Source: Bacteroidaceae bacterium (GTDB taxonomy: Bacteria; Bacteroidota; Bacteroidia; Bacteroidales; Bacteroidaceae). Taken from it: DNA of 42,576 nucleotides. The stretch is taken from assembly GCA_024401225.1 (NCBI GenBank), contig JAKSLM010000022.1:1-42576 (forward strand), read 5' to 3'. The notes under the pieces were generated by a model. The model worked only from the letters and a program-made list of their open reading frames with translations, searched no databases and was not told the origin of the DNA. The translations under genes were made by a program, and so were the position numbers. The number at the start of each line of letters is the position of its first letter. Position 1 is the stretch's first letter. Of this stretch, positions 25,285 through 36,557 are shown piece by piece.

Positions 25285-26844
25285 ATGCATAGCGAAGAGC
25301 GCACATACATAGCCATAGACTTGAAGTCGTTTTTCGCTTCAGTGGAGTGCGTGGAAAGGGGGCTGGATCCGCTTACCACGAATCTCCTTGTGGCAGACGT
25401 AAGCAGGACTGAGAAGACCATCTGCCTTGCGGTGTCGCCTTCGCTCAAAGCATACGGCATAGGAGGCAGAGCGCGCCTGTTTGAAGCCATACAGAGGCTC
25501 AAGGAGGTGAACTGTGAGCGTATGATGAAGACGCCTGGATATCGTCTGACAGGAAAGACGTGGGACGATACTGAACTGAAACAACATCCCGACTGGGAGG
25601 TAGACTATATTGCTGCGCCCCCAAGGATGGCAAAGTATATCAAGTACAGCACTCAGATATACGAAATATACTTGAAATACGTAGCACCGGAGGACATTCA
25701 TGTATATTCGATCGATGAGGTCATAATGGATGTTACATCCTATCTCAAGACACCATCCGTATGCTCGAAGACCGAGACACTCTCCACTATGGAAAAAGCA
25801 AAAAGGCTGACCTTGAAAATCATCAAGGATGTGCTTAAGTCAACGGGCATCACGGCTACTGCAGGCATAGGAACGAACATGTACCTGTGCAAGGTGGCAA
25901 TGGACATCGTGGCAAAGCATATCCCTGCCGATAAGGATGGTGTACGCATAGCTACACTCGATGAGAAGACATACCGCGAACAGCTATGGGATTACACTCC
26001 TATCACCAAGTTCTGGCGCATAGGCAGAGGCATAGCCACAAAGCTTGCCCAATACGGTATGCAGACCATGGGCGACATCGCTCTTTGCTCGGTAAAGAAT
26101 GAGGAAGTGCTTTACAAACTGTTTGGAGTAAACGCCGAACTGATCATCGACCACGCATGGGGATGGGAACCATGTACTATAGACTATGTAAAGGCTTACA
26201 AGCCAGAGACCAATTCGCTTAGCACAGGACAAGTGCTACAATGTGCCTACGACTTCAGCAAGGCACGCATAGTGATACAGGAAATGGCAGAGGCTGCAGC
26301 ACTCGACTTAGTGAGCAAGCGCCTGGTAGCAAACCAGATCGTGCTTACCGTTGGCTACGATATAGAATCGCTCACAAACCCTGAGATTAAAGCAAAGTAC
26401 CAGGGACCTATAACAAGGGATTACTACGGCAGGGAGGTGCCGAAATATGCACATGGTTCCATACAGCTGGGCAAGCATACATCGTCAACAGAGATTATAA
26501 GCAAATGTGTTCAGGAACTCTATGACAGAGTAGTCAATCACGACCTTCTGATACGCCGACTGAATCTTACTACCAACCATGTAGTGCCGGAGGACTCCCC
26601 TACCCTACGCAAGGAAAAATGGGGAGGCACACCTATACAGTTGGACCTCTTTACCGACTACGAAAAGATAAAAGAGGAGAACCAACAGCAGGAAGAGAAA
26701 CTGACAAGGGAAAGGCGAATGCAAGAAGCATTGCTCGGCATCAAGAGGCGCTACGGCAAGAATTCCATCCTACGCGGATTGAACCTTGAAGAAGGGGCAA
26801 CAGCCATAGAACGCAACAAGCAGATAGGCGGTCATAAAGCCTAA
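25285..26844 (+). CDS. Y-family DNA polymerase (UmuC/UvrX-like)
   Basis: A 519-residue translesion polymerase. The catalytic acidic residues are D12 (YIAIDLKSFFASVE) and D144-E145 (VYSIDEVIMDV). Helix-hairpin-helix (thumb) and little-finger regions follow (about 215-470). The insert VSRTEKTICLAVSPSLKAYGI and the overall length resemble the UvrX/ImpB branch found in Firmicutes rather than short DinB. The next gene encodes a YolD-like protein, the usual partner of UvrX-type polymerases. No LexA box is evident, and it is co-directional with unrelated genes. It would perform error-prone bypass of DNA lesions. Confidence 0.92.
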   Translation: MHSEERTYIAIDLKSFFASVECVERGLDPLTTNLLVADVSRTEKTICLAVSPSLKAYGIGGRARLFEAIQRLKEVNCERMMKTPGYRLTGKTWDDTELKQHPDWEVDYIAAPPRMAKYIKYSTQIYEIYLKYVAPEDIHVYSIDEVIMDVTSYLKTPSVCSKTETLSTMEKAKRLTLKIIKDVLKSTGITATAGIGTNMYLCKVAMDIVAKHIPADKDGVRIATLDEKTYREQLWDYTPITKFWRIGRGIATKLAQYGMQTMGDIALCSVKNEEVLYKLFGVNAELIIDHAWGWEPCTIDYVKAYKPETNSLSTGQVLQCAYDFSKARIVIQEMAEAAALDLVSKRLVANQIVLTVGYDIESLTNPEIKAKYQGPITRDYYGREVPKYAHGSIQLGKHTSSTEIISKCVQELYDRVVNHDLLIRRLNLTTNHVVPEDSPTLRKEKWGGTPIQLDLFTDYEKIKEENQQQEEKLTRERRMQEALLGIKRRYGKNSILRGLNLEEGATAIERNKQIGGHKA

Positions 26845-26898
26845 ACAAATAGCCCTTACTCCATTTTTGAAACAAAACCAACATCAACAGTTCCGTCC

Positions 26899-27312
26899 AT
26901 GGGTAAATACGACGATATCATCAACTTACCGCACCACGTTTCCAATAAGCATCCACAGATGTCAATGTATCAACGTGCAGCACAGTTTGCTCCGTTTGCT
27001 GCACTAACCGGCCATGGTGCAGCAATCAATGAAACTGCACGAAGGACGGACAGCGAAATTGAGTTATCAGAGCAAGAAAGACAGAACCTGAACAGGAACC
27101 TTAACATAATACTCGAGAACATAAAGTCCTACCCATCCGTCACCATAACGTACTTCATTAACGATGAGCACAAGTCAGGAGGCAGATACTCTACCATCAA
27201 GGACAACATAAAGAAATACGACGAGTATAGCGGCACCTTGCATCTGGAATGTGGGCTGGAAATACAGATCAGTCACATTGCAGACATCAAGAGCGAGCTA
27301 TGCGAGAGATGA
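26899..27312 (+). CDS. YolD-like protein
   Basis: A 137-residue protein whose N-terminus (YDDIINLPHHVSNKHPQMSM, then RAAQFAPFAALTGH) is the YolD-like signature; the C-terminal half forms beta strands. YolD proteins are found next to UvrX/UmuC-like polymerases, as here, and were proposed to be a functional counterpart of UmuD. It begins 54 bases after the polymerase. Its last 26 bases overlap the 3' end of the opposite Gate-domain gene. Confidence 0.9.
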   Translation: MGKYDDIINLPHHVSNKHPQMSMYQRAAQFAPFAALTGHGAAINETARRTDSEIELSEQERQNLNRNLNIILENIKSYPSVTITYFINDEHKSGGRYSTIKDNIKKYDEYSGTLHLECGLEIQISHIADIKSELCER

Positions 27313-28268: not shown

Positions 28269-28619
28269 TCATCCCTCGTAACGCTTCTTCATCGCATCGA
28301 AGTTTCGATCTAACCAGTCGCATGTAGCTTCATAGATAATATCGTCGACCGACACACGCTTCATGCCATCCTTGAAACGGCGCCACTGCTTGATGGTCTC
28401 CAGTTTGTCATTTACATCAAAATCGAAGAAAACTGACTTCTTTATTATACGCTCAGACGATGAGTCCTTTCCCACCTTCTTAGTAGTTGGTTTTGGTTGA
28501 GACTCCAGGATATTATCGGCAGGAACACCATTCTGTATCGCATCCTGTGATACTTCAATGTTCTTACGAACACCTCCCATTATGTCCTGAGTAAAGTTGG
28601 TCTTTTGCTTAAGTGCCAT
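28269..28619 (-). CDS. Ribbon-helix-helix-like centromere-binding partner of ParA (putative)
   Basis: A 116-residue protein encoded after parA. The first ~55 residues are polar and likely disordered. The C-terminus can form strand-helix-helix: KKSVFFDFDVNDKLE (strand), ETIKQWRRFKDGM (helix), SVDDIIYEATCDWLDRNF (helix), as expected for a ribbon-helix-helix fold. That layout (flexible N-terminus, RHH C-terminus, about 100 residues, next to a short ParA) matches the ParG/omega type of centromere-binding protein. It would bind the repeated TMGCA boxes and stimulate ParA through its tail. Homology by name was not recognised; the call rests on context and fold pattern. Confidence 0.68.
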   Translation of the reverse strand: MALKQKTNFTQDIMGGVRKNIEVSQDAIQNGVPADNILESQPKPTTKKVGKDSSSERIIKKSVFFDFDVNDKLETIKQWRRFKDGMKRVSVDDIIYEATCDWLDRNFDAMKKRYEG

Positions 28620-28692: not shown

Positions 28693-28726
28693 AGCGAAGC
28701 GAAACAACGCAACTGCGATTTTGCGA
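28693..28726 (-). repeat. Secondary cluster of TCGCA/TCGCT boxes before the RHH gene
   Basis: On the minus strand TCGCA occurs at 28722-28726 and 28714-28718, and TCGCT at 28698-28702 and 28693-28697. The first three are spaced 8 and 16 bp. These are the same core as the array upstream of parA, lying in the 223-base gap between parA and the RHH gene; probably an extra binding or autoregulatory site. The rest of the gap shows nothing else clear. Confidence 0.6.
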
Positions 28727-28842
28727 AAAAAGTCATTTACGAATATACGTCACTTTCCTTTGTCTCCCCTACCCTATCTTATACGACTAAATAATCTAAT
28801 CCATCAATATAAATGAACGATAACTTATAAAAACAAAATAGA

Positions 28843-29622
28843 TTACTTAGTTGATGTCGACTTTTTCTTTATTCCTGTTATCTCACGAGCAAGCTGCATA
28901 TAGTCCTCTGCTCCGGCACACGTAGGATTGTACTGGAAAATGCTCTTGCGTGCAGCTGGCGTCTCGGTGAGTTTGATGTTGTCGCGAATCTTTGCATTGA
29001 ACACCTTATCTGGGAAGTTTTCGCGCAACGCATTAGCAACATCACGGTAAACGCGAATGTTTGACTTAAACTTGGTGAGAAGATAACCCTCGATCTCAAC
29101 ACCAGGATTGAGCTTCGACTTCACCACTCCAAAGTCGCGCTGTATCTCACCCAGTCCTTGAAGTGCCAAAAGCTGTGAATCGACAGGAATGATAATAGAA
29201 TCAACAGCACACATGGCATTGATGGTTATCATACCACGATTAGGTGGGCAATCAAAAAGGATGTAATCATACTTACCCTCTACTTGCGATACAAGATCCT
29301 TAATGATTGTTTCACGACCTATACGAGTTACAAGCAATTCGTCTGCCCTTCCAAGGCGACGATCACTTGGTACGAGGTCCACATTCTTCATCTCTGTATC
29401 ATAAATAGTCAGAGGTTGCAGTTCCTCTACCTTGATCGAATCATAGATAGTTGCGCCATCTCCCTCATCAAAGCCGATAAGATAGGAAGTATTAGCCTGG
29501 CTATCCAAGTCAACAATAAGAACCTTCTTCTTCAAGATTCCCAGTGCTGCACCTAAGTTTACTGTTGTGGTAGTCTTTCCTACACCACCCTTAAAATTCA
29601 AAATTGCGATCTTCTTTGCCAT
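28843..29622 (-). CDS. parA: ParA-type partition ATPase
   Basis: A 259-residue Walker-type ATPase. The deviant Walker A is KGGVGKTT (residues 11-18), followed by the A' motif VLIVDLDSQANTSY and the Walker B strand YDYILFDCPP. There is no N-terminal helix-turn-helix extension, as in the short Soj/type Ib ParA proteins. It would bind nucleoid DNA with ATP and move replicon copies apart with its centromere-binding partner. It has its own promoter, a phased repeat array just upstream and an RHH-like gene downstream. It is more likely a plasmid/chromid than a main-chromosome ParA because no ParB_N-type parB follows and a Rep gene lies 5.4 kb away. Confidence 0.93.
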   Translation of the reverse strand: MAKKIAILNFKGGVGKTTTTVNLGAALGILKKKVLIVDLDSQANTSYLIGFDEGDGATIYDSIKVEELQPLTIYDTEMKNVDLVPSDRRLGRADELLVTRIGRETIIKDLVSQVEGKYDYILFDCPPNRGMITINAMCAVDSIIIPVDSQLLALQGLGEIQRDFGVVKSKLNPGVEIEGYLLTKFKSNIRVYRDVANALRENFPDKVFNAKIRDNIKLTETPAARKSIFQYNPTCAGAEDYMQLAREITGIKKKSTSTK

Positions 29623-29652: not shown

Positions 29653-29660
29653 CAAAGATA
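29653..29660 (-). promoter_or_regulatory. -7 promoter box (TATCTTTG) of parA
   Basis: The minus strand reads TATCTTTGC 30 bases before the parA ATG, between the gene and the phased repeat array. Confidence 0.68.
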
Positions 29661-29692
29661 AAGTATATTAATAAATTACAAAATGAAAATTG

Positions 29693-30000
29693 TAGCAAAA
29701 TCCATTATTAGCAAACGGAAAAGGTCGCAATAGGACAATTTCGCAGAAAATCTTTATCGCATTAGAGTATTTTATATTATTAGCACATATCTATAATAGC
29801 AAATACGATTTTAGCATTTTACGATTATTCTAATATTCAATTATTACATATTTAGCATTTTACAATAATGCATTTCTCGCAGTATAGTATTGTCGCAGTT
29901 TACCTTACTCGCTTTTTCGCTTTACGTCATATTCGCACATGACACTTTGAGCAAAGGCGCTAATATTCTTCTTCGCATTGTATATTTTTCGCATTTGCGA
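29693..30000 (+). repeat. Candidate centromere: 17 TMGCA-like boxes on a 16/8-bp lattice
   Basis: Exact TAGCA/TCGCA boxes in one orientation start at 29693, 29709, 29725, 29741, 29757, 29781, 29797, 29812, 29853, 29877, 29893, 29933, 29973 and 29989. One-mismatch boxes start at 29909 and 29917 (TCGCT) and 29949 (GAGCA). Steps are 16 bp or other multiples of 8 (24, 8), with two one-base slips (15 and 41). The array is AT-rich, has no coding potential and lies just upstream of parA, where type Ib centromeres are found. It ends with the dyad TCGCATTTGCGA. Confidence 0.8.
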
Positions 30001-30035
30001 ATTTTCTAAAAAAGTAAAAAGGAAATTCTCGACAA

Positions 30036-30911
30036 TTAGCGCATTGTGTCGCGGTATTCAAGTGGAGTACGTCCTGTTAGCTTCTTGAACAGACGAATGA
30101 AGTAGGAGTGATCGTTGAAGCCTAACTTGTAAGCAACTTCTTTGACTGGTAAATCCTCTGTAATAAGTATAAGCTGTGCTTTCTCTATCTTCTTATTATT
30201 GATGTATTGAAGAGGGGAGATTGAGAAGTTTTTCTTAAATATACGAATTAAGTAGGGTTTGGTGACACAAGCCTTGTCAGAAAGGGTATCAAGATTGATC
30301 TCATCATAGATATGAGAATGAATATAATCCAAAACCTTTAACAATCGGTCATCACTAATCCAAACCTTTTTTGAAGCGAATTTGAGAAAATGCGAAAAAA
30401 ATATTAATATCAAACCGCGAATCTTCATTTTTTGAAAAAGGTCAAGATCATTATAACGTCGCACATAGTCAGTAAATACAGTTGTGTTATCGTATGATTT
30501 TGGATCAGAAGCTGGCAAACTGAAGTCAGGGTACTCATTTAACAGCAAGGCAAAGAGATCCAATTCTCCCGATTCTGCATTCACCTCATAAGGAAAATTA
30601 TAATATTCAAATATATCTGTTTCTTTCTTAAATCCCTCATATACATGCAAATAATAATGAGAAAACACACTATCACATTGGTAGGAATGAACAGTATAAG
30701 CAGGAATCATGTATAGATGATTAGGCTTTAACGTGATAATCGTTTTTTGAGAGGAATTTGCTTGTTCAATAATAATTTGCGCGTTACCCTCTGTGACATA
30801 GTAGATGCGGGCAAAAGGAGAGGACACATTTTGCCAGTTCCAATCACCATTATGATTGGCATATCCAACATTCAACATCAGCAGATTGAGTGATTCTATA
30901 GGTAACTGCAT
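30036..30911 (-). CDS. AraC-family transcriptional regulator
   Basis: A 291-residue regulator with an N-terminal cupin-like sugar-sensing domain (residues ~15-150; ARIYYVTEGNAQIII, HLYMIPAYTVHSY) and a C-terminal double helix-turn-helix AraC domain (~190-290; KPYLIRIFKKNFSISPLQYI and AYKLGFNDHSYFIRLFKK). It probably controls the adjacent GH31-mutarotase unit or itself in response to a sugar. The gene is AT-rich, and its 3' end abuts the centromere-like array. Confidence 0.92.
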   Translation of the reverse strand: MQLPIESLNLLMLNVGYANHNGDWNWQNVSSPFARIYYVTEGNAQIIIEQANSSQKTIITLKPNHLYMIPAYTVHSYQCDSVFSHYYLHVYEGFKKETDIFEYYNFPYEVNAESGELDLFALLLNEYPDFSLPASDPKSYDNTTVFTDYVRRYNDLDLFQKMKIRGLILIFFSHFLKFASKKVWISDDRLLKVLDYIHSHIYDEINLDTLSDKACVTKPYLIRIFKKNFSISPLQYINNKKIEKAQLILITEDLPVKEVAYKLGFNDHSYFIRLFKKLTGRTPLEYRDTMR

Positions 30912-34035: not shown

Positions 34036-34342
34036 GGCATTTTACTATTTTTTCCGTTGGACTTATTGAAATGATGATAGGACATTTTATTCAAATCAAC
34101 AGTTATCCCTATCTACTTATTCACCTTACACAGTAATGCGCTATATTCAGAAAAAGGTCTACATAAAAAGTTGAAAAAAATTTACGCCAGTGATTGTTTA
34201 AATTAATAAACATGGTTATAATGTTGAATTTTCGTCATTTATCATTTTTGGCAAAAGTAACACTTTAATATATTCTTATCTATAATACCTGTAAAAACGT
34301 TTTTCTGCATAAAATAAGAATGAATATCTCTTTTCAGTAAGC

Positions 34343-34359
34343 GTAACAAAATATCAACT
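34343..34359 (+). repeat. Outlying iteron
   Basis: GTAACAAAATATCAACT matches the 17-bp iteron consensus of the main array but stands 186 bp upstream of its first unit. It has the same orientation. Confidence 0.72.
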
Positions 34360-34528
34360 CTATTTTTCCGTTATTATTGACTATATCTTATTGATATTTA
34401 ATTATATAAATGATTAATCTTAAAAACTGAAAATGATCGATCTTTATTTTTCTATGTTATTATAATAAGTATGATTAGTATAAAGGACGCTATAACTATC
34501 GGTTTTTTAATAAGATACGCATCAAATA
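34360..34528. other. AT-rich segment, candidate DNA unwinding element
   Basis: This stretch between the outlying iteron and the main array is very AT-rich (for example TTAATTATATAAATGATTAA) and has no ORF. Such segments next to iterons are typically where the origin opens. No perfect DnaA box was found; TTATCCCTA at 34106 differs at two positions from the consensus TTATCCACA. Confidence 0.5.
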
Positions 34529-34969
34529 GTAACGAAATGTCAACTTTATCGTAACGAAATATCAAGATTTCCGTAACTGATTTACAATACTTTGTAACGA
34601 AAACTCAACTCTATTGTAACCAAATATCAACTCTTTTCACTAACGTAACGTATTCTCAACTCTATATACCTGATTTTGTAACGAATTTACAAGTTCTTGA
34701 TTTTCCGTAACAAATCTACAACTCCCTTTGCAAGCGTGTGGCGTAACGAATTATCAACTTATCTTCAAGGCTATAGCGTAACAAAAATACAACTATTATA
34801 AATACAGAAGTGTAACGAATTGTCAACTCATTATCGTTGCATAGCGTAACTAATTTACAACTTTTCGCGTTCTTGTTTTCCTTTAATCGTAGGTACCAAA
34901 ACAGGCCAAAAGCGTAACTAATTTACAACTTCTTTTTGCAACTTATTGAACCGTAACGAATTGTCAACT
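34529..34969 (+). other. Replication origin: array of 14 iterons
   Basis: Fourteen directly repeated 17-bp units, consensus GTAACNAATNNTCAACT, start at 34529, 34551, 34573, 34594, 34616, 34645, 34678, 34707, 34743, 34778, 34812, 34846, 34913 and 34953. The first five are spaced 21-22 bp (two helical turns); later ones mostly 29-36 bp (about three turns), with one 67-bp step (six turns). Units 11 and 14 are identical, as are 12 and 13. All point towards the rep gene, whose start is 83 bp after the last unit. This is the layout of an iteron-controlled Rep_3 origin. Confidence 0.92.
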
Positions 34970-35025
34970 TTTCGCTGAAATTTAAAATATTTTGGAAAAT
35001 GTTTTTTTGTTTCGGATAAATGTCG

Positions 35026-35033
35026 TAAATTTG
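35026..35033 (+). promoter_or_regulatory. -7 promoter box (TAAATTTG) of rep
   Basis: TAAATTTGC lies 19 bases before the chosen ATG and 57 bases after the last iteron. Rep bound to iterons could repress this promoter, as in other iteron replicons. Confidence 0.68.
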
Positions 35034-35051
35034 CGCCAAATATCAATACCG

Positions 35052-36557
35052 ATGGCAAAAAAAACAGAAGAGGCTAAGAAAACGGCAAAGAAAGCGAAGA
35101 GTTCCACCTCAGCCAAGAAAAGGGAGAAAGTCATCCTGCAGAATCTCCCAGCCGAGGCAAAATGGCTCAAGCAGCCAACGAGCATCACATTCCTCAACCA
35201 GGACATGACTTTAACCCAGGTTGGCACCATGGTCGAAATAGTCGATGTGCTGCAGGACCGCATCAAGCAGGCTATAGCCAAGCGCGAACGAACGCTCTTT
35301 GATGAGTCAGAGTTTAGCAGCGATGGCACACTTGACATTGAGGTACAGTTGTCAGCTATCTACCCTGATGCTACTCAGTACCGCAATCTTGAGGACACGA
35401 CTAAGTCCATGCTTAAGTGGAATGTGCAGAAGGAGTATGTGGATGAGAAGGGGGAGAGCCGAAAGGTGATGCAGAACATTTTCTCATCAATCGATATTCC
35501 TACATCCGAGAATGGACGCCGAAAGGGCACGGTGCGTTTTTCTATTTTGAAGAACGCCGTTGACTCTGTCTTCGTGCTTGATCAGTATAATAAGTATTTA
35601 AAGTCCATCTCCCGAAGTGCAAACAGCGTTTACACCTCTCGTATATATATGTTCATCACGGCCTATCTCAACCTTGGCAAGTGGGAACCTAAGTACGAGG
35701 ACTTGCATCGCATGTTCGGTTTTACGGTGTTCAAGACCGATGAGACTACGAAGAAGCAGGATTGGGTGGTGGAGAAATATCCCAACTATCGCCAGTTTAA
35801 GCAGAAGGTATTGAAGGTTGCTCAGGAGGAACTGAAGACGCTTGCTGAGGAAAACAAGGTCGATTGCTTCTTCGACTTCTACGAGATCTATCCTAACGGA
35901 AAGAAGAACGGACAGCCTTACAAGATACATTTCGATATTTACCGAACAAGCTTTGGACGCCATCAGCAGGAGGCCGATGCCTCTATGAAGGAATACTTCG
36001 CCATTGAGTCTATGCTGAAGAATGAGTTTGCATTTGGATCGACCGAGATCAATCAGCTGCGAAAATTGATGAAGGCGGAGGACTATCCGTTCCTCAAGAT
36101 CAAGATCTCCGAGGTGAAGCTGTACATCGATTCGCATGCCGATAGCATAAAGGACCCTAAGCGCTATGCGTTCACATCACTTCGCCAGGCACTCCTCGAC
36201 CTTGTACCCGAGGCTGAGGTTGAGATGACTGCTGGAACTCAGCAGCCACCGGTTGATGCAGAACTGACAAACGCAGAAGGGCAGGGTAGTGTGAATGTTG
36301 AACAGACTACCAATGAAGTTGCCGCTGACACTCTTGCTCTGTTCAATAAGGCAAAGCAGAACATTCTGGATGAAGGCCATGATCCTGAGGGATTCACTTC
36401 CGGAATGACTCTGGTTGGTGAGGATGCCAAGACCTTGATCATCCAGGTAGGTTCCCAGTCGTTTATTGATGCCTACATCAATATGCATGGCACAGAGTTC
36501 TTTGATGTGTTGAAGTCCCTGACTGGAAAGAGCGTGAAGTTCGTGAAGCAGAGCTGA
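35052..36557 (+). CDS. Rep_3-family (RepB-like) replication initiator
   Basis: A 501-residue initiator. A lysine-rich N-terminus (1-25) leads into two winged-helix domains of Rep_3 type (about 75-320): SRIYMFITAYLNLGKWEPKYEDLHRMFGF, then YRQFKQKVLKVAQEELKTL and KIHFDIYRT. An unusual C-terminal ~75 residues follow after a low-complexity linker (LALFNKAKQNIL...TLIIQVGSQSFIDAYI). The start at 35052 (MAKKTEEAKK) is chosen because an earlier ATG at 34992 lies upstream of the promoter box. The protein would bind the adjacent iterons and start replication. A terminator follows 77 bases after the stop. Confidence 0.92.
   Translation: MAKKTEEAKKTAKKAKSSTSAKKREKVILQNLPAEAKWLKQPTSITFLNQDMTLTQVGTMVEIVDVLQDRIKQAIAKRERTLFDESEFSSDGTLDIEVQLSAIYPDATQYRNLEDTTKSMLKWNVQKEYVDEKGESRKVMQNIFSSIDIPTSENGRRKGTVRFSILKNAVDSVFVLDQYNKYLKSISRSANSVYTSRIYMFITAYLNLGKWEPKYEDLHRMFGFTVFKTDETTKKQDWVVEKYPNYRQFKQKVLKVAQEELKTLAEENKVDCFFDFYEIYPNGKKNGQPYKIHFDIYRTSFGRHQQEADASMKEYFAIESMLKNEFAFGSTEINQLRKLMKAEDYPFLKIKISEVKLYIDSHADSIKDPKRYAFTSLRQALLDLVPEAEVEMTAGTQQPPVDAELTNAEGQGSVNVEQTTNEVAADTLALFNKAKQNILDEGHDPEGFTSGMTLVGEDAKTLIIQVGSQSFIDAYINMHGTEFFDVLKSLTGKSVKFVKQS

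Follow-up and report, generated by a model that had tools for sequence, protein, structure and literature searches.

In the RepB/RepC system of the enterococcal plasmid pAD1, 8-bp direct repeats lie beside a gene of the ParA type. Type Ib ParA proteins are described as proteins of about 200–250 aa without an N-terminal helix-turn-helix (HTH) domain (PMC9178275). The parFGH system of TP228 (ParF, ParG, and parH) combines a short ParA protein without HTH, a small protein encoded downstream, and a repeat array upstream. Its boxes are given as degenerate tetramers in PMC7308502, and its centromere and operator as adjoining repeats in PMC5016525. In the delta/omega/parS system of pSM19035, a ribbon-helix-helix (RHH) protein is accompanied by consecutive 7-bp repeats that cover part of the promoters of both genes, the parA-like one and the one for the RHH protein (PMC9499535). 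The ParAB system of pCXC100 is presented in PMC5016525 as a type Ib system with a centromere composed of direct repeats only.

The locus analyzed here shares the three components of parFGH: a short ParA without HTH, a small protein encoded downstream of it, and a repeat array upstream of it. The 8-bp period of parH is also seen (z 14.7 in the window, and present in two of three ParG loci, L138 and L140). The differences from parFGH are in the letters of the boxes, TMGCA (M = A or C) instead of degenerate tetramers, in the length of ParA (259 aa, against 206 aa in the ParG control L138), in the small protein, which is not recognized by the Pfam ParG family, and in the exact boxes, which avoid neighbouring lattice sites. 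With pSM19035 the locus has in common a proposed RHH protein and short repeats overlapping a putative parA promoter, but the lattice is of 8 bp, and period 7 is not raised.

The window, meaning the whole stretch of DNA analyzed, is an entire contig of 42,576 bp (C21 of genome G000) with a GC content of 47%, from a draft genome of 3.0 Mb in 105 contigs that is 84% complete. Its features are collected in Table 1. The Rep_3-like gene and its own iterons lie 5 kb from the parA-array region, and the iterons are probably the replication origin, distinct from the array. The secondary replicon may be a plasmid or a chromid. A chromosomal ParABS system was rejected; there is no HTH ParB gene beside parA, and in the 84%-complete genome the sole ParB-domain (ParB_N) match found lies elsewhere, on contig C70. 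The remaining genes read on the contig are largely for sugar, enzyme, and transport functions. Many carbohydrate and redox genes are spread over positions 1–42576 (GH43, GH31, GH3, fucosidase, esterases, alcohol and short-chain dehydrogenases), and at 25285–27312 a UmuC/DinB-like polymerase (IMS family) precedes a small protein whose match to YolD falls short of the threshold (E 0.019).

Table 1. Coordinates of the features in the window.
Feature	Position	Strand	Basis or remark
Small protein of 116 aa, proposed RHH centromere-binding protein	28269..28619	-	223-bp gap after parA
Second small cluster, between parA and the small gene: TCGTA, TCGCA, TCGCA, TCGCT, steps 16, 8, 16	28698..28742	-	
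parA, 259 aa, Walker ATPase without N-terminal DNA-binding domain	28843..29622	-	Pfam AAA_31 from residue 3, E 4.1e-49
Putative parA promoter, Bacteroidetes type: TTTG, 18 bases, TATCTTTG	29653..29682	-	Sequence and spacing
Periodic array, proposed centromere and operator	29672..30040	.	About 46 positions on 8-bp lattice, about 370 bp
Exact TMGCA boxes (14; 13 in one phase modulo 8)	29693..29993	+	Motif count
Many iterons of about 22 bp, GTAACGAATTGTCAACT type	34338..34969	+	Repeat families D1-D4; before Rep_3-like gene
Replication initiator, Rep_3-like	34992..36557	+	Pfam Rep3_C E 9.7e-5 (passes cut-off); Rep3_N E 0.0016 (fails cut-off)

Exact TMGCA boxes, which read TGCKA on the parA strand, start at 29693, 29709, 29725, 29741, 29757, 29781, 29797, 29812, 29853, 29877, 29893, 29933, 29973, and 29989. 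The out-of-phase one is 29812, one base early. The steps between them are 16, 16, 16, 16, 24, 16, 15, 41, 24, 16, 40, 40, and 16; 11 of the 13 are multiples of 8, and none equals 8. One-mismatch boxes occupy the lattice at four further sites (29885 TAGTA, 29909 and 29917 TCGCT, and 29949 GAGCA). In 5000 dinucleotide shuffles of 29689–30000, a mean of 2.6 boxes and a maximum of 8 were found, with at most four in phase, against 14 and 13 in the real sequence. Among lags from 1 to 44, only 8, 16, 24, 32, and 40 were matched by none of 2000 shuffles, and lag 8 reached z 5.2 in the array against z 0.6 for lag 7. The 8-bp comb over the 400 bases upstream of parA gave the z of 14.7, as high as in none of 400 shuffles. 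When the comb was applied to 211 tiles of the window, two array tiles scored z 14.5 and 11.9, and the next highest tile scored 3.1. The maximum-likelihood period-8 segment runs from -418 to -50 relative to the parA start, and the array fills nearly all of the space that separates the parA start (29622) from an AraC-type gene ending at 30036. In the own genome, all three exact matches to a three-box pattern sit in the array and none elsewhere; four one-mismatch matches outside the array are at the control level.

The preliminary description had been made from the letters of the sequence. Its count of fourteen exact boxes, its five consecutive starts exactly 16 bp apart, and its statement that chance would not give such phasing are all borne out by these data. 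Its placement of the array upstream of parA also stands, but the limits of 29693..30000 are corrected to about 29672–30040. Near-matches do occur on the lattice as it had said, at four sites rather than three. Steps of 8, 16, or 24 bp had been described as nearly general; multiples of 8 do prevail, but a step of 8 is missing between exact boxes and some steps are of 40 or 41 bp. The mainly 16-bp step is real as well, but it mostly reflects the use of alternate sites on an 8-bp lattice and is not the unit.

The unit of 8 bp is indicated by the octamers between the exact boxes. The mean PWM score of the non-box on-lattice octamers is -4.9, while the other phases score from -7.9 to -13.2. As these octamers resemble the box, the lattice is of 8 bp with weaker boxes between strong ones. 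Between the first and the last exact in-phase box there are 38 lattice sites with 13 exact boxes, among which no pair is neighbouring and seven pairs are two sites apart. The chance of zero neighbouring exact boxes is P 0.002 by formula and 0.004 by simulation, and that of at least seven pairs two sites apart is 0.014. The 16-bp step thus arises because exact boxes avoid neighbouring lattice sites. The exact in-phase boxes are split over both 16-bp registers (7 and 6), and once the one-mismatch boxes are added, neighbours appear at 29877/29885/29893 and 29909/29917. Both observations indicate that spacing by 16 bp is preferred without being the unit. The alternate-site rule applies to exact boxes only.

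The encoded ParA fits the description of a type Ib ATPase, being 259 aa long, with AAA_31 from residue 3 and without an N-terminal HTH. The nearest solved chain is 8ray, a ParA family protein (E 7.1e-48). The consensus of Bacteroidetes promoters is TTTG-N(about 19)-TAnnTTTG, and the putative parA promoter of this type overlaps the left edge of the array. Downstream of parA, in the gap before the small gene, box-like pentamers are present in one 8-bp phase at 28742, 28726, 28718, and 28702. The comb of this gap (z 1.4) is not significant alone, and the cluster partly coincides with a terminator-like stem; it is possibly the operator of the small gene. In the genus relatives (excluding G008, with a gap of less than 70 bases), the corresponding gap is 8-bp periodic in four of six (z 5.2–7.3), and weakly so in G025 (2.2) and G002 (2.6).

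The 116-aa protein matched no family in Pfam at E <=1, ParG (PF09274) included, and none in NCBIfam; its best PHROG match has an E-value of 0.15. A tblastn search against plasmids at E 0.1 returned no match, and scanning of viral contigs with the alignment A1 of the protein confirmed no relative. The AlphaFold2 model, built from three sequences, predicts a low-confidence tail at residues 1–56 and helices at 67–84 and 91–115, with a block pLDDT of 75–83 for residues 61–110; no strand forms in the model of the single chain. With Foldseek, the top match of this model is the RHH centromere protein ParB of pCXC100, which is non-significant (E 3.5), and ParD-like RHH proteins also appear, all at E >1. 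A profile of 11 small proteins compared with solved structures gave three matches, none of them significant: an unrelated protein (0.22), ParG 1p94 (0.26), and 2k9i ORF56 (0.36), which we take to be an RHH protein. The ParG alignment spans the strand through both helices. These similarities are suggestive of an RHH protein. Since the ParG match is weak (E 0.26), we infer rather than observe both the RHH character and the binding to the array.

Matches to parA at E 1e-60 or better were found from nine of 44 other genomes of the genus, with 46–53% identity. A recognizable small protein adjoins parA in eight of the nine and a diverged one in the ninth, G019; these small proteins have an N-terminal tail and an RHH-like end. 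A Rep-like match (23–26% identity) is present on the parA contig in seven of the nine genomes. Two orthologues have too little upstream sequence (G044 with 5 bases and G001 with 60), which leaves seven testable. The comb over 400 bases upstream of parA (294 for G002) gave z values of 8.7 for G025, 4.5 for G016, 11.9 for G035, 3.6 for G002, 4.6 for G024, 5.0 for G019, and 6.6 for G008, each reached by none of 400 shuffles. Period 8 scores highest in six of the seven, and G019 is ambiguous, with z 5.1 for period 6 and 5.0 for period 8. All of the seven but G019 also exceed the best of 12 shuffles in the segment test. Among control tiles from the same genus loci, only one of 148 reached z >=3.5 (one of 28 among tiles of at least 62% AT). 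This sole tile, L027 1601–2000 (z 4.5), lies about 1.2–1.6 kb upstream of the G025 parA and is perhaps a second site.

Phased boxes ahead of the parA orthologues had been set in advance as one of the tests of the centromere reading, and the 8-bp lattice is present in all seven testable orthologues, with the ambiguity of G019. A search for the motif itself in other replicons had been suggested as a check; the 8-bp phasing is kept, but the letters are not TMGCA. They are, for example, of the GAAARCWA or TWGTTTTA types, and the 16-step TMGCA pattern (at most one mismatch) is absent from the 33 other genus genomes sampled. The conserved feature is the spacing, not the letters. A two-strand EM motif search yielded blurred, half-palindromic motifs, and a phase-locked segment model was used instead.

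A wider sample was composed of 16 parA loci whose upstream sequence was long enough: ten came from plasmids, five from genome contigs, and one from a second genus of the family. Plasmid records with a parA match numbered 340, of which 11 were fetched; L042 (80 bases) and L021 (60) were dropped for short upstream sequence. The lattice is clear upstream of parA in two of the 16, L036 from the other genus and L038 from a Bacteroides plasmid, and borderline in L040, where it is seen only 350–700 bases upstream. The 84-aa partner encoded in L038 shows weak matches to the Pfam ParG and RHH families (ParG E 0.0012, below the cut-off). Among 79 IMG/VR parA loci (from the best 80 of 438 relatives), the 8-bp comb reaches z >=3.5 in seven of 78 testable loci, and in all seven an ORF of 116–166 aa directly follows parA; L104, with no upstream sequence, was dropped. 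L048 (1–6412), of which L049 was dropped as a duplicate, is a phage-like contig. Its parA is 51% identical and is accompanied by a small protein and by octamers in a nearly perfect run (z 14.0); together with ORFs judged by eye to be portal-like, peptidase-like, and methylase-like, these suggest a phage-plasmid. A small protein directly follows parA in the genus orthologues, L036, L038, and L048 alike. The clear lattice in few distant parA loci indicates a recurrent solution that is not universal among ParA relatives. Strong arrays with a 9-bp step were observed upstream of parA in the IMG/VR loci L071 and L073, which have identical upstream sequence (z 13.9 and 13.7), and downstream of parA in L039 from a Lawsonia plasmid (z 7.1); the step may therefore change between lineages. 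As controls, three of the 773 plasmid records matched by a ParG stretch were fetched. Upstream of parF, the 8-bp comb gave z 9.1 in L138 (an E. coli plasmid with ParF/ParG) and 17.7 in L140 (Ewingella, more distant), and no 8-bp lattice was found in L139 (Serratia symbiotica; z -0.5).

These results support the centromere reading of the preliminary description as the most likely one, with the lattice seen at all seven testable orthologues and at two of three ParG controls. The array is proposed to be the centromere, with an operator at its left edge, of a type Ib module (array, parA, and a small RHH protein) on an iteron-controlled secondary replicon, with a probability of about 0.83. It is unlikely that the array is an operator only, at which the small protein represses parA while the true centromere lies elsewhere. 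The array does abut the putative parA promoter and the smaller cluster precedes the small gene, but an array of 370 bp with about 46 steps would be far beyond the need expected of an operator, no second long period-8 array exists within the 42.6-kb window, and in TP228 the centromere and the operator are likewise adjoining repeats (PMC5016525). Direct repeats on a Rep-encoding replicon could also be taken as replication iterons bound by the Rep_3-like initiator. This reading is extremely improbable: the rep gene has its own repeats of about 22 bp directly upstream, at 34338–34969, none of which is in the array, and the array differs from them in period (8) and letters. Moreover, five of the closest Rep relatives in the genus, read over 11–20 kb, show neither a ParA-type P-loop motif nor a leading 8-bp array.

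Very unlikely, too, is that the array is one of the intergenic octamer repeat arrays of the family, standing beside parA by chance, although such arrays exist. The 16-step TMGCA pattern with at most one mismatch matched 11 of 399 family genomes, that is, the own genome and 10 of the 398 others. Nine of the latter (G203, G213, G252, G387, G290, G176, G161, G273, and G325) have octamer arrays of similar letters, and the match in G107 looks like chance. The pattern read backwards as a control matched 13 of the 399 genomes, the own genome included, which indicates that arrays phased by octamers, with a variety of letters, are no rarity within the family. With 11 matches against 13 for this control, and none in the 33 genus genomes, the TMGCA letters were rejected as a handle for orthologous centromeres. 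The octamer-array loci are L141–L149 and L151–L160 minus the window's own L143 and L154; the DNA was read in 13 and the ORFs were listed in five, in which the arrays are intergenic and parA is absent. The arrays, with units such as AATGTGCT/AATGTGAC or TTTGCGAC, stand between genes and are on more than one contig in seven of the nine genomes. Nothing on point about intergenic octamer arrays of these genomes was found among the literature matches listed. Against a chance neighbour of this kind, exact matches in the own genome are confined to the array, and the 33 other sampled genus genomes do not have the pattern, yet in the genus orthologues an array with different letters occupies the corresponding position. 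The 8-bp signal was found in one of 148 control tiles from the genus loci and none of the 209 other tiles of the window. A common octamer form of the family arrays is absent from the own genome, and it matches three of 45 genus genomes, while its control matches five.

If the array is the centromere of a type Ib module, dimers of the 116-aa protein would bind one lattice step each, the strong TMGCA boxes first, and the weaker intervening boxes would be filled through cooperation. By analogy with the described type Ib systems (PMC5016525, PMC7308502, and PMC9499535), the RHH dimers may cover the array and form a protein helix that surrounds the DNA. The coated array would repress the adjoining parA promoter, and the flexible N-terminal tails of the protein would be presented to ParA, both by the same analogy. 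ParA would then move two copies of the replicon apart, using the nucleoid, and each daughter cell would inherit a copy.

A more specific proposal is speculative and rather doubtful: these proteins of Bacteroidales might form a clade of unannotated RHH-like centromere proteins with a fixed 8-bp geometry, in which changes in the letters go along with changes in the strand residues that face the DNA. In the window, with the strong boxes on alternate lattice sites, the binding unit might be a pair of dimers (16 bp), the second dimer being recruited to a weak box. If so, the natural pairs of protein and box would provide a recognition code for RHH centromeres. The distance between box profiles was compared with strand similarity by Mantel tests, with strands aligned by eye and G002, G019, and L140 left out. 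For 17 loci, r is -0.62 for the outward residues, -0.56 for the whole strand, and -0.41 for the inward residues (each p 0.0002). For 12 representatives, r is -0.32 (p 0.014), -0.22 (p 0.065), and -0.06 (p 0.34), respectively. Letters and residues of the strand thus correlate weakly after relatives have been collapsed, and the comparison serves as a lead only.

This kind of plasmid centromere is already known; what is unusual is the alternate-site use by exact boxes and the natural series of lattices with changing letters. Among the literature matches listed on such partition systems, there was no mention of Bacteroides. The reading gives a candidate function to an unannotated gene pair and its site on secondary replicons of Bacteroidales, and a simple test of 8-bp periodicity detects such arrays without knowledge of their letters. 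The natural pairs of protein and box bear on how RHH centromere proteins may shift specificity at a fixed geometry, and thereby on plasmid incompatibility.
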